64,000 bases of DNA. Origin: Williamsia soli (lineage in GTDB: Bacteria > Actinomycetota > Actinomycetes > Mycobacteriales > Mycobacteriaceae). The notes below the pieces were generated by a model. It saw only the letters and a program-made list of their open reading frames with translations. It did no database searches and was not told the DNA's origin. Shown here piece by piece: positions 33,699 through 38,558 of this stretch. Made by a program: the position numbers and the translations under genes. The stretch is from contig NZ_JAFRDR010000015.1 in assembly GCF_017377795.1 (NCBI RefSeq), positions 1 to 64,000 of the forward strand, written 5' to 3'. Each line of letters starts with the position of its first letter. Position 1 is the first letter of the stretch.

Positions 33699-34570
33699 TC
33701 GCGCCGTCACATGGCCGGCGCGGCATCCTGCCCGCGCTGGCGCTGGTAGCTGCCTTGTTGGTGGCGGGGTGCGCCGAGTCGGGGCCGGCCCCGCAGGCGT
33801 TGGTGACCGGTTCGACTGCTGACACCCCCAGCCGGGTCGCCGCCGCCATCTATGCCGGCGCGCTGCGAGGCGCAGGGGCGCAGGTGTCAGCTGAACATCC
33901 GGTGGGAACTGATGCGGAGCTGTTGGGCAAACTAGACGACCGCTCGCTCGATCTGATCCCCGCGTGGTCTGGCGAACTGCTCGGTCAACTCGATCCGGGT
34001 ACCGCCGCGCTGTCGGCGGACGACGTCTACGCCCAACTCAACAAGGCTTTGCCCCAGGGTGTTTCGGCCGGTGATGTCACCAGTGTGGCGAACAAGCCGC
34101 TGGTGTTCGTCGCCGAGTCGCTCGCGACCTCTGCCGGGGTCGACGAACTCGCCGAGTGTGCACGCCTGCCCGTAGGCATACCGCTGGTGACAATCGACGA
34201 ACCGACCCCGGATATCGTGGCTGCGTTAAGTGCGGCGGGTTGCGGATTCGCGCCGCCGCGACAATTGGACGCGCAGACGGCGGTTGCCGAGGTCGCGGCG
34301 GGTAGGGCTGTCGGCCTCTTCCCACCCCTTTCGGTGGCCGCAGATGATTCGGGTCTGCAAGGGCTTGCCGACACGGGCGACGTGCTGCGCGCTGAAGACC
34401 TGGTGCCCGTCTTCCGGACCGCATCCCTGAGCCGGGGGTTGTTCCAGACGATGAACAAGGTGGCCGGAGAACTGACCACCGCCGACCTCACCACGATGTC
34501 TCGTGAGGTCGACGGCGGCGCAGAGATATCGACGGTCGCGCAGCGCTGGTTAGGTGAACACAGCCTCTGA
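33695..34570 (+). CDS. lpqZ: OpuAC/ProX-like substrate-binding lipoprotein (LpqZ-like)
   Basis: 291 residues. A hydrophobic leader ends at lipobox VAGC with Cys26. The mature part has the glycine-betaine/choline-binding fold signature (TPSRVAAAIYAGALRGAGAQV, LDLIPAWSGELLGQLDPG). In M. tuberculosis LpqZ (Rv1244) occupies this position before Rv1245c and kgd, so the symbol is by position and similarity. No permease or ATPase accompanies it. GTG 33695 overlaps the malic enzyme stop. It overlaps the convergent alpha/beta hydrolase gene by 21 bases at its end. Confidence 0.82.
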   Translation: MIAPSHGRRGILPALALVAALLVAGCAESGPAPQALVTGSTADTPSRVAAAIYAGALRGAGAQVSAEHPVGTDAELLGKLDDRSLDLIPAWSGELLGQLDPGTAALSADDVYAQLNKALPQGVSAGDVTSVANKPLVFVAESLATSAGVDELAECARLPVGIPLVTIDEPTPDIVAALSAAGCGFAPPRQLDAQTAVAEVAAGRAVGLFPPLSVAADDSGLQGLADTGDVLRAEDLVPVFRTASLSRGLFQTMNKVAGELTTADLTTMSREVDGGAEISTVAQRWLGEHSL

Positions 34571-35485
34571 CGTACGGAGATGAGCACTCAAGAAGTCACC
34601 CAGTTCCTCGACGGCCGCATTCGCCGCCGGCATGAGTGGCGCGGCCACGTGTCCGACGTGCCACAGTCGGCCGAGGTCGCTGAGTGTCGACTCGACACCG
34701 GCGGCCCGCAGTTTGCCCGCGAACTCGGTGACCTGGTCGAAAAGGATCTCAGGCCGGCCGATCTGGACCAGGGTCGGTGGGAGTCCTGCGAGATCTCCCC
34801 GGCCCGGTGCGTACCGCGGATCGTCGGGATCGCCATCCCCCAGGTACATGTCCGCGGCCTGGCTGGACCACGCGCCGTTGACCACGATGTCGGTGGCCCC
34901 GTTGCCGGTGTCGTCGTCGGATTGCCTGACGGCGGGGTCGACCCAGGGGGAGATCAGTCCCAGAGCAGCCGGTGTGATCTCGTGCTCGTCGATCAGCACC
35001 CTGGCGGTGGCGACCGAGAGCCCACCACCGGCAGAGTCACCCGCGATGGCGATCGACTCCGGGGCATATCCCCGACTCATCAGATCGCGGAAGGCCGCGA
35101 CGGCATCGTTCACCGCGGCCGGACATGGGTGCTCCGGTGCCAGTCGGTAATCGAGAACGTAGACCTCGGCTTCGGCGGCCCGTGCCAGGGTGGTGGTCAG
35201 CCCGCGATGTGACCTCGCCGAACCGACGGTGTACGCGCCACCGTGCAGATACAGGATCGCGCGGCCGTGGTGGGTGGGGCCCACCGTGATCCTCTCGGTC
35301 GGCCTCCCCGCGAGGGTGATCTGACGGATCACCTGATCGGGCAGCGCGGGAATCGCGAAGGCGCTCGCGTCGAGCAGCTTTCGCTGGATCGAGGGGGACA
35401 ACCGCGCGTTGAGCGACAGCCGGAACAACGGTTTGAAGAGCACCTCACTGACCGGGATGGACAGTGCCAGGCGGGGTGTTCTCAC
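34550..35485 (-). CDS. alpha/beta hydrolase (HSL/acetyl-esterase family)
   Basis: 311 residues. Hormone-sensitive-lipase signature HGGAY (81-85) forms the oxyanion hole; nucleophile Ser151 sits in GDSAGG; the later EILFDQ and RLWHVGHV segments supply the Asp and His. GTG 35485 overlaps the SDR stop by four bases (GTGA), so it is the last gene of a three-gene operon with the dehydrogenase and monooxygenase. A Baeyer-Villiger product would be an ester or lactone, which this enzyme could hydrolyse (inference). Confidence 0.9.
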   Translation of the reverse strand: MRTPRLALSIPVSEVLFKPLFRLSLNARLSPSIQRKLLDASAFAIPALPDQVIRQITLAGRPTERITVGPTHHGRAILYLHGGAYTVGSARSHRGLTTTLARAAEAEVYVLDYRLAPEHPCPAAVNDAVAAFRDLMSRGYAPESIAIAGDSAGGGLSVATARVLIDEHEITPAALGLISPWVDPAVRQSDDDTGNGATDIVVNGAWSSQAADMYLGDGDPDDPRYAPGRGDLAGLPPTLVQIGRPEILFDQVTEFAGKLRAAGVESTLSDLGRLWHVGHVAAPLMPAANAAVEELGDFLSAHLRTSEAVFT

Positions 35486-36342
35486 AGGAGCTCCGACGGA
35501 TGCTGGATGACGGTCTCCGGTTTCGGCGCGAGGCGCCCGGCGAACTTGGCGATGACGACCTCGTACATCGATCCGCCTGCGCGGACCAGCAGATCGATGA
35601 CCTTCGCGTCCGCGCCGACGAGGACTCGGGGGCGATTCTTCTCGATGGCCGAGATGATGATCTCCGCGGCGCGTGCCGACGTCGTCCGGGCCAGCTTCTT
35701 GTCGAAGAGTTCCGCCGTGGCTCTCTGATCGTGGCCGTCGGAGACGGTTGCGTTGCGGCCGATCGCGGTCTTGATGCCACCGGGATGCACACACGTCACC
35801 TGGACAGGATGACCGGCGATCTTCATCTCCTGGTACAGCGACTCGGTGAAGCCGCGCACCGCGAACTTGGCTGCGTTGTAGGCACTTTGGCCGGGCATGG
35901 CCAGGATTCCGAACAACGACGAGGTGTTCACGACATGGCCGTCGCCCGAGGCGATGAGGTAGGGCAGGAATGCTTTGGTGCCGTTGACGACGCCCCAGTA
36001 GTCGATGTCCATCACGCGTTCGTATTGCTTGAACTCGGTGATCTCGACCTCGCCGTGGTGGGCGATTCCGGCGTTGTTGATCACCAGGTTGACCTTGCCG
36101 AAGTGTTCGGCGACGGTGTCTGCGTACTCGAGAACCGCCTCGCGTTCGGCGACGTTGAGCAGCTGTGCGTGAACCTGCGCACCCTGCGCTGTGAGAAGGC
36201 GCTCGGTTTCTTCCAGACCTGCGGGGTTCACGTCGCTGATTGCGACGAGAGCGCCCTTACCTGCGAGCTGGAGCGCCAGATCGCGGCCCATACCCGATCC
36301 GGCTCCGGTCACCACTGCTACCTTGCCTTTGAAATCCTTCAT
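35482..36342 (-). CDS. short-chain dehydrogenase/reductase
   Basis: 286 residues. Cofactor motif TGAGSGMG (12-19), NNAG, catalytic Ser in NTSSLFG and the active pair Y-N-A-A-K in SAYNAAK. SDRs of this type interconvert alcohols and ketones. It would make the ketone substrate for the upstream monooxygenase and is flanked by it and by the hydrolase with ATGA- and GTGA-type overlaps on each side. Resembles Rv1245c by position. Confidence 0.92.
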   Translation of the reverse strand: MKDFKGKVAVVTGAGSGMGRDLALQLAGKGALVAISDVNPAGLEETERLLTAQGAQVHAQLLNVAEREAVLEYADTVAEHFGKVNLVINNAGIAHHGEVEITEFKQYERVMDIDYWGVVNGTKAFLPYLIASGDGHVVNTSSLFGILAMPGQSAYNAAKFAVRGFTESLYQEMKIAGHPVQVTCVHPGGIKTAIGRNATVSDGHDQRATAELFDKKLARTTSARAAEIIISAIEKNRPRVLVGADAKVIDLLVRAGGSMYEVVIAKFAGRLAPKPETVIQHPSELL

Positions 36343-37856
36343 GAGGTCACCGTTTCTTTCGCTGCAGGGATCGTGCCGGCCGTGGGGTTCAGTGAGCGAG
36401 CACTGGCTGTGTCGTAGGCGGCAAGGTCGAACTTACGGGTGATGCGCCGGTAATTGAATGTGAATCCGGGCCACAAGGTGGTGATGTTGCCGAATGCGTC
36501 CTTGTACCAGCTGGCGCAGCCGCCGGTCTCCCACACGCTGGACTTCAGGTTGTCCTGGATACCCACGTTGTAGTCGCGCTGGACGTCGGCGCGGACCTCG
36601 ACCCGTGCGATGTCGTACTGCCGCTGCAATGTGAAGTAGTCGACGAGATAGTTCAGCTGCGACTCGATCATGTAGACCATCGAGGTGTGGCCGAGACCGG
36701 TCGACGGTCCGACCATCAGGAACATGTTGGGGAACCCGTTGACGGTGGTTCCTTTGTAGGCCTGCATGCCGGTGCTCGCCCAGACCTCGGCGAGGCTGCG
36801 ACCGTCCTTGCCGATGATGTGTTCGAACACGGGGGAGTCGGTGACGTGGAACCCGGTGGCCACCACGATCGCGTCGACCTCGCGGGCGACGCCGTCGGCG
36901 GTGACGATCCCGGTCGCGGTGACCTCTCTGATGGGGTCGGTGACCAGTTCGACGTTGTCCTGGTTCAGCGCGGGGTAGTACGTGTTGGACAAGAGGATCC
37001 GCTTGCAGCCGACCTTCCAGTTCGGGGTGACGGCGGCGCGGAGCTTCTTGTCGGAAATCCCGCGGGCGATGTTCCGTCTGCCGGCGATCTTGCCTGCCGC
37101 GAGCATGTTCGGGGCATGGGTGAGGCCGAAGGAGACGAGTTCGTGTGCCGCGTAGATGGTTGCGCGGGTTGCTCGCTGGTATCCGGGGATGTTCTTGAAC
37201 GCCCAGTTCTCACCGGACGAGTACGGCCGGTCGGCACGCGGCAGGATCCACGGCGCGGTCCGCTGGTACACGTCGAGCTGTCCCACCGTCTTCGCGAGCT
37301 CGGGGATGATCTGGACGGCCGACGCGCCGGTGCCGATCACGGCGACCCGCTTGCCTTTCAGGTCGTAGTCGGAGTTCCAGCGGGCAGAGTGGAAGATCTC
37401 GCCGGTGAAGCCCTCGATGCCTTTGACGTCGGGCAGCTTCGGTTCACAGAGTGGACCGACGCCGGCGACCATGAAGTCCGCGCGGAACTGACCGTTCGAG
37501 GTGTCGATGATCCACTGCCCGGAGTCCTCGTCCCAGGCGGTGTTGGTGACCTCGGTGTTCCACTTCGTCTTCGACCCCAGGTTGTACTTGTCGGCGACGT
37601 GGTTGATGTAACGGTGGATCTCCGGCTGCTGAGAGAAGGAGCGGCTCCATGACGGGTTGAGGGCGAACGAGTACGAGTACAGGTGCGAAGGGACATCGCA
37701 GGCTGCGCCGGGGTAGGTGTTGTCGCGCCAGGTTCCGCCGAAGTCGCTTCCGCGATCGAGGATCACGAAGTCGTCGAAGCCGTTTTGCTGCAGCTTGATG
37801 GCTGCGCCCAGTCCGGAGAAGCCTGCGCCGATGATGGCGATCTTTACAACGTTCAT
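36339..37856 (-). CDS. flavin-containing Baeyer-Villiger-type monooxygenase
   Basis: 505 residues. FAD-binding GxGxxG is IGAGFSGLG (~7-15), the Baeyer-Villiger fingerprint FxGxxxHxxxW is FTGEIFHSARW, and the NADPH-binding GxGxxA/G is VIGTGASAVQ. Such enzymes insert oxygen next to a ketone to give an ester or lactone. It is the first gene of the operon with SDR and hydrolase, a natural alcohol-ketone-ester-acid route. ATG 37856 lies 7 bases after a TATGTT -10. Repression by the divergent TetR protein through the operator at 37874 is likely. Confidence 0.93.
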   Translation of the reverse strand: MNVVKIAIIGAGFSGLGAAIKLQQNGFDDFVILDRGSDFGGTWRDNTYPGAACDVPSHLYSYSFALNPSWSRSFSQQPEIHRYINHVADKYNLGSKTKWNTEVTNTAWDEDSGQWIIDTSNGQFRADFMVAGVGPLCEPKLPDVKGIEGFTGEIFHSARWNSDYDLKGKRVAVIGTGASAVQIIPELAKTVGQLDVYQRTAPWILPRADRPYSSGENWAFKNIPGYQRATRATIYAAHELVSFGLTHAPNMLAAGKIAGRRNIARGISDKKLRAAVTPNWKVGCKRILLSNTYYPALNQDNVELVTDPIREVTATGIVTADGVAREVDAIVVATGFHVTDSPVFEHIIGKDGRSLAEVWASTGMQAYKGTTVNGFPNMFLMVGPSTGLGHTSMVYMIESQLNYLVDYFTLQRQYDIARVEVRADVQRDYNVGIQDNLKSSVWETGGCASWYKDAFGNITTLWPGFTFNYRRITRKFDLAAYDTASARSLNPTAGTIPAAKETVTS

Positions 37857-37863
37857 GGGTAAG

Positions 37864-37891
37864 AACATACCGCCTATTGACGAACTGTCAA
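37864..37891 (-). promoter_or_regulatory. promoter of the monooxygenase-SDR-hydrolase operon
   Basis: On the minus strand TTGACA (37886-37891) and TATGTT (37864-37869) are 16 bases apart, and the -10 ends 7 bases before ATG 37856. This gives a strong leaderless-type promoter. The operator at 37874-37894 covers its -35 and spacer. Confidence 0.65.
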
Positions 37892-37894
37892 TAG
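37874..37894. promoter_or_regulatory. TetR operator 1
   Basis: CTATTGAC-N5-GTCAATAG is a perfect 8-bp inverted repeat. It covers the -35 and spacer of the operon promoter, so binding by the divergent TetR protein would block transcription. Confidence 0.7.
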
Positions 37895-37918
37895 TGAGAC
37901 ACACGGATCCGGATCGCT

Positions 37919-37937
37919 TATTGACAACGAGTCAGTA
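37919..37937. promoter_or_regulatory. TetR operator 2
   Basis: TATTGAC-N5-GTCAGTA repeats operator 1 with one changed base and the same 5-base spacer. It overlaps the -10 of the TetR gene and would allow autoregulation. Confidence 0.6.
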
Positions 37938-37941
37938 TGAT
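37936..37941 (+). promoter_or_regulatory. -10 hexamer for the tetR-type gene
   Basis: TATGAT ends 8 bases before GTG 37950, consistent with leaderless transcription. It overlaps operator 2. Confidence 0.4.
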
Positions 37942-37949
37942 CAGGTCTT

Positions 37950-38558
37950 GTGACCACCGCACGACGAACCAGGATGAGCCCCGAGGCCAGGCGAGACCAG
38001 CTGATCAGCCATGGTCTGCGGATGCTCGACGACCGCGCGCTCGACGAGGTGTCGGTCGAAGAGGTGGCCGAGGCGGCCGGGGTCTCGCGTGCGTTGCTGT
38101 TCCACTATTTCGAGTCCAAGCAGGACTTCTTGGTCGCACTGACGACGGAGCAGAGCCGGCGGATGCTCGCACGCACCGAACCCGATCTCACCCTGGGTGA
38201 CCCCATCGCCATCGCCAGGGGTTCACTTGCGGCGTACATCGACTACGTGTCGGCGAATCGCTCGGCCTACCTTGCGATCCTGCAGGGGGCCGGGGCGTCG
38301 GATCCCGCGATGCGCAAGGTCGCCGACGACACGCGCACGGTGATGGCGGAGCGGGTGCTCGGGCTCGCCGAACTCCTGGACCTACACCGGACACCTTTGA
38401 TCGAACTCGCGGTGCACGGATGGGTGACGTTCAGCGAACAGGTCACGGTCCGATGGCTGCAGGACGAGGCGGGCATCAGTCGTGACGAGATCGTCGAACT
38501 GATCGCCCGGTCACTACCGGTGCTCGCAACGCTGGCTGCCGACCCAAACAACCGATAA
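37950..38558 (+). CDS. TetR family transcriptional regulator
   Basis: 202 residues. The N-terminal helix-turn-helix (~14-60) reads ISHGLRMLDDRALDEVSVEEVAEAAGVSRALLFHYFESKQDFLVAL, a typical TetR fold with the HYF recognition turn. The C-terminal ligand domain has no recognisable subtype. It is divergent from the monooxygenase operon with 93 bp between starts, containing two matching palindromes. It probably represses that operon and itself until a substrate such as a ketone or its derivative is present (inference). Confidence 0.9.
   Translation: MTTARRTRMSPEARRDQLISHGLRMLDDRALDEVSVEEVAEAAGVSRALLFHYFESKQDFLVALTTEQSRRMLARTEPDLTLGDPIAIARGSLAAYIDYVSANRSAYLAILQGAGASDPAMRKVADDTRTVMAERVLGLAELLDLHRTPLIELAVHGWVTFSEQVTVRWLQDEAGISRDEIVELIARSLPVLATLAADPNNR

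Follow-up and report, generated by a model that had tools for sequence, protein, structure and literature searches.

In Williamsia soli, a gene for a TetR-family regulator lies back to back with an operon for a Baeyer-Villiger monooxygenase (BVMO), a short-chain dehydrogenase/reductase (SDR) and an esterase. Judged from its sequence, this arrangement very probably forms an autoregulated divergon, in which the TetR protein would repress both its own gene and the subterminal oxidation of alkanes and methyl ketones until a compound of the pathway releases it. The window analysed here is the whole stretch of 64,000 nucleotides that makes up positions 1 to 64,000 of contig NZ_JAFRDR010000015.1. The divergon, its operators and a leaderless promoter were confirmed as conserved sequence features. 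The regulator most likely sits on both operator sites, holding back its own gene and the fatty-ketone enzymes, and this reading is well supported because many related bacteria have the same switch.

Genes and proteins of the divergon

The regulator gene (37950..38558, + strand) encodes 202 amino acids with the Pfam domains TetR_N (2.7e-13; 49.9 bits, cut-off 24) and TetR_C_46 (4e-9). Its AlphaFold2 model (26 sequences) is all-helical with a mean pLDDT of 90.5, and 13 of the residues between 44 and 58 are invariant across 26 aligned proteins. Two identities were considered for the protein and rejected: FasR (NF053731), which is its best NCBIfam match and scores 58.2 bits against a curated cut-off of 330, and EthR, whose structures it matches only over residues 5-66 (E ~6e-6) and not over the full length.

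On the opposite strand, the type I BVMO (36339..37856, - strand, 505 aa; Pfam FMO/BVMO) is followed by the SDR (35482..36342, - strand, 286 aa) and by an esterase of the Abhydrolase_3, or hormone-sensitive-lipase, type (34550..35485, - strand, 311 aa) with a GDSAG motif. Each downstream start overlaps the preceding stop by 4 bp, as ATGA between monooxygenase and SDR and as GTGA between SDR and esterase, and the overlapping operon proposed in an earlier, sequence-only reading of this DNA is thus present. The monooxygenase carries both Rossmann motifs of the form GxGxx[G/A] (GAGFSG at 10, GTGASA at 175) and the motif [AG]GxWxxxx[FY]P[GM]xxxD (GGTWRDNTYPGAACD at 40), and its stretch FTGEIFHSARWN agrees with the fingerprint FXGXXXHXXXW[P/D] at all residues but the last, where N is found. 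The same fingerprint with a final N appears in the excerpts of the report on BVMO_4041, an active ortholog (PMC12724338).

Operators and promoters in the spacer

The spacer between the monooxygenase ATG (37856) and the tetR GTG (37950) measures 93 bp (37857-37949) and contains two palindromes, found both by inspection and by motif scan and assigned to neither strand. Operator O1 (37874..37894) is the perfect palindrome CTATTGAC-GAACT-GTCAATAG (8+5+8), and operator O2 (37919..37937) is TATTGAC-AACGA-GTCAGTA, with one mismatch; their centres are 44 bp apart. At up to two mismatches the window yields four palindrome rows (two sites on two strands) where shuffles predict 0.14, and none of 100 shuffles matched this number. 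In the 6.07-Mb genome, O1 and O2 are the only matches of the motif scan at up to one mismatch. Allowing two mismatches adds four sites, equal to the count for a reversed-pattern control, and a regulon outside the divergon was considered and is not claimed, since these extra sites are no commoner than the control.

Some of the surroundings of these extra sites are recorded here as observations in their own right. One lies upstream of the gene for a paralogous TetR (36% identity; L100, C11). This paralogue (L064, G000:C11 ~784560) has similar, TATTGAAC-type palindromes of its own upstream, which suggests a subfamily of related operators. A paralogous BVMO (37% identity over a stretch) has another two-mismatch site (G000:C9:4201-4219, L099) some 0.67 kb upstream of it, which may be due to chance.

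The promoter of the monooxygenase operon (37864..37891, - strand) consists of TTGACA (37891-37886), N16 and TATGTT (37869-37864), the last of which ends 7 nt before the ATG at 37856, so that the promoter is of the leaderless type; it is the sole promoter-like match within 37700-38100. On the other side, a -10 element TATGAT (37936..37941, + strand) stands 8 nt before the tetR GTG at 37950, also of the leaderless type, and no -35 was recognisable for tetR in the promoter scan of 37700-38100. O1 spans the -35 and the spacer of the monooxygenase promoter, while O2 shares only its last two bases, the first two of the tetR -10 (37936-37937). The sequence-only reading was therefore accurate on the two palindromes, on their degree of perfection, on the position of O1 and on the promoter ending seven bases before the ATG, and its statement that O2 covers the tetR -10 was too strong, because only two bases of that element are overlapped. 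A hairpin or attenuator function of O1 was also considered and rejected: O1 lies upstream of the likely transcription start, and the sole terminator-like match overlaps the operator.

Conservation among orthologous loci

A search with the TetR protein matched all 61 genomes searched, no doubt often through other TetRs, and the best 30 matches became loci. The best-matching named records were titled Williamsia, then Gordonia, and one was titled Kitasatospora. The comparison comprised 49 loci in which the TetR gene has a divergent partner. Their spacers all differ in sequence, and they are not independent because close Williamsia strains are among them. Left out were shorter copies of the same places (L001-L030), nine loci taken to duplicate the places of others (L065-L071, L086, L087), TetR genes lacking a BVMO or SDR partner (L061, L064, L090, L091, L092) and loci in which the TetR match was missing at 1e-10 (L093-L096). 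The record titled Kitasatospora arboriphila (contig NZ_JNYV01000009.1, L070) holds a Williamsia locus, with a TetR of 89% identity and the same gene order, and looks misnamed or contaminated. Three Microbacterium TetRs (L090, L091, L092; 36-39% identity) have a single upstream ATTGACTCAGAGTCAAT-type palindrome and no adjoining BVMO or SDR match.

The palindrome, whose absence beside orthologous operons had been named in advance as evidence against the switch, was found at least once at up to two mismatches in all 49 spacers. Two or more sites were present in 34 of the 49 spacers at up to one mismatch, in 43 at up to two and in 46 at up to three, as against 0, 0 and 0.04% of base-shuffled spacers; at up to four mismatches, part of the extra sites overlap real ones. 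Exactly one site at up to three mismatches was seen in three loci (L040, L060, L062), two of which (L040, L062) lack a match to the monooxygenase but retain the TetR, one site and the SDR. The counts per column of the sites are partly built in, as the sites were chosen by their match to the consensus.

With respect to gene content, a BVMO match was present in 47 of the 49 loci and an SDR match in 48, the remaining contig being cut, and 38 had kgd close by, in the orientation expected. The esterase was matched in 27 loci, and one of the 22 without a match lies on a cut contig. The three-enzyme route is not obligatory, given these 22 loci; the complete alcohol-ketone-ester-acid route in one operon that had been proposed is encoded in the window, and as a conserved trait it does not hold.

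The promoter facing the monooxygenase is conserved as well. In 48 of 49 loci the element TANNNT stands 5-7 nt from O1 and is followed, after 6-8 nt, by the start codon (ATG in 47, GTG in one), whereas this geometry arises in 7% of cases when the stretch from operator to start is shuffled; this difference argues well for an operon transcript of the leaderless type, as predicted from sequence. On the tetR side, 34 of the 46 two-site loci have TANNNT with 6-8 nt to the start, and 21 show the two-base overlap between this box and the end of O2 that the window has. TANNNT with 5-9 nt to the start was not found in 12 of the 46, nine of which are records titled Gordonia.

Operator spacing and distribution in the family

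Across loci the distance between operator centres is mostly 20-23 bp, and wider spacings of 32, 33, 43, 44 and 54 bp lie near whole helical turns. For example, seven genomes of the window's genus (g1), among them that of the window itself, have 44 bp, and one each has 54 and 23 bp. In genus g13, three genomes have 32 bp, and one each has 33 and 43 bp; in three-site loci, sites 1 and 3 are separated by 43-44 bp. A phasing test gave R = 0.95 at 10.5 bp (p ~0.004) from six distinct genus-spacing states. The proximity of the spacings to multiples of the helical repeat is suggestive only, because these states are few, non-independent and were picked after inspection of the data. Outside the divergon, the wide pattern was matched in eight genomes, in seven of which the match adjoins a TetR of 32-36% identity; the eight spacings (24, 26, 26, 27, 32, 34, 44, 45) are not all off phase.

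These distances fit a more ambitious proposal, which is held tentatively and with somewhat less than even confidence. The locus would be a family-wide local TetR switch for subterminal methyl-ketone oxidation, with its two operators on one face of the helix and both divergent promoters leaderless and each locked to its own operator; the spacing would change by approximately whole turns (2, 3, 4, 5) and would therefore imply cooperative or looping contacts between two TetR dimers.

A strict paired-site pattern was matched in 210 of 401 family genomes, and its reversed control had no match among the matches listed for these genomes. As for the surroundings, 28 of the 30 best-ranked matches, which are no random draw and come from the matches listed, sit in a TetR/monooxygenase divergon. 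The genus of genome G036, which from its gene order we take to be Mycobacterium, gave one sampled pattern match (G345), without divergon genes beside it. In G036 itself (L189, 2757-9954), kgd, SDR, lpqZ and mez are consecutive with no TetR or BVMO match, and it is possible that the switch was lost there and the SDR kept. In genus g22 (L162, L163, L164), a different paired motif, of the type TTGAGC-N3-GCTCA, lies between genes for a TetR (32-33%) and an SDR (28-29%), and is another TetR divergon.

Likely substrate and related systems

The function of the monooxygenase can be approached through BVMO_4041 of Rhodococcus erythropolis XP, an alkane degrader. According to the portions of the report available, this 524-aa enzyme, assayed in resting cells, accepted 2-dodecanone, 2-hexadecanone and 4-phenyl-2-butanone, converting the C12 and C16 methyl ketones to acetate esters, and was inactive on 2-heneicosanone and progesterone (PMC12724338). 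Its forward primer was located in five of the 401 family genomes, four times exactly and once with one mismatch. In G111 the two primers have exact matches at either end of a divergon gene of 524 aa, whose product is 61% identical to the window monooxygenase; the gene is surrounded by TetR, SDR, esterase and kgd (L188), with two operators 22 bp apart. The enzyme is thus an ortholog from the same kind of TetR/BVMO-SDR-esterase locus, as judged by these exact primers, and shares the fingerprint ending in WN; the excerpts of the report deal with the enzyme alone and mention neither an operon nor a TetR regulator (PMC12724338). Since primers and length identify BVMO_4041 as an ortholog from the divergon, oxidation of medium-chain methyl ketones is the most likely activity of the window enzyme, and the substrate of the module is likely a medium-chain methyl ketone or a secondary alcohol; no indication of cyclic alcohols emerged from the analysis. 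The proposal of a ketone-related catabolic module is in this way backed by a published ortholog.

Several known systems resemble the divergon in part. In Mycobacterium tuberculosis, the TetR-type EthR is encoded beside the BVMO gene ethA, as in the window. The mymA operon of the same species unites a BVMO, a lipase/esterase and an SDR under an AraC-type regulator, VirS, and is likened here by gene content; MymA is a named BVMO, like the window enzyme. Acinetobacter is a Gram-negative genus distant from the host of the window. From what is excerpted of the literature, the sad cluster of Acinetobacter NyZ410 likewise serves subterminal oxidation, with a BVMO (SadD) and esterases acting on 2-ketones (Yin 2022, cited in PMC12753306, PMC13055320). 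In the actinobacterium Dietzia DQ12-45-1b, AlkX is also a TetR repressor of alkane oxidation and binds DNA cooperatively, but it controls the hydroxylase gene alkW1 and no BVMO operon, according to the sections available (PMC12472514). No description of the present TetR regulator was recognised among the open-licence papers listed, subscription papers lying outside their scope, which is weak evidence of absence.

Mode of regulation

Under the preferred reading, one TetR dimer on O1 would block RNA polymerase at the leaderless monooxygenase-SDR-esterase promoter, and a second dimer on O2, touching the start of the tetR -10, would block tetR. Both dimers would be placed on roughly one side of the helix and could assist each other. 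A hydrophobic compound of the pathway, presumably a medium-chain methyl ketone, ester, alcohol or fatty acid, would bind the C-terminal domain of the regulator and release it from the DNA. The SDR would then oxidise a secondary alcohol to a ketone, the monooxygenase would convert the ketone to an ester, a reaction published for C12 and C16 methyl ketones with the ortholog, and the esterase would cleave the ester to alcohol and acid; the SDR and esterase steps are assigned from the function of their families.

It is improbable that TetR, bound to the palindromes, would serve one of the promoters as an activator or dual regulator. The best NCBIfam match, FasR, is a named activator and tetR has no recognisable -35, but the FasR score of 58.2 falls far below the cut-off of 330, and O1 overlaps the -35 together with the spacer, its distance from the -10 being maintained in 48 of the 49 loci, which is the geometry of steric repression. 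That the conserved TTGAC...GTCAATA sequences are promoter elements and no operator at all is harder still to credit, even though one half of O1 contains the -35 TTGACA. The other half of O1, together with O2, recurs without a clear -35 role, and 34 of 49 spacers, but none of the shuffled ones, contain at least two full palindromes with no more than one mismatch each; the counts of the site columns agree, though in part by construction, and the paired pattern of 210 of 401 genomes has no counterpart in the control among the matches listed.

Somewhat less remote, and still unlikely, is the view that the operon serves lipid housekeeping or detoxification rather than catabolism. Its wide conservation, the nearness of kgd in 38 of 49 loci and the retention of the SDR beside kgd in G036, where TetR and monooxygenase have no match, would agree with such a role. 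On the other hand, a local repressor suits a substrate-induced pathway, and BVMO_4041, which comes from an alkane degrader, acts on C12 and C16 methyl ketones, as reported in the excerpts (PMC12724338).

Significance

The TetR divergon described here is a fresh example of a familiar type of control. It provides an exact candidate operator for a regulator whose gene accompanies BVMO genes in Williamsia, Gordonia and related genera, and links this regulator with an enzyme group of which one member has been tested in published work. The pattern of helical phase, moreover, lends itself to a natural test of whether TetR binds cooperatively. If the proposed switch is correct, it would supply an inducible pair of leaderless promoters for actinobacteria and would explain how subterminal alkane and ketone oxidation is switched on in these bacteria.
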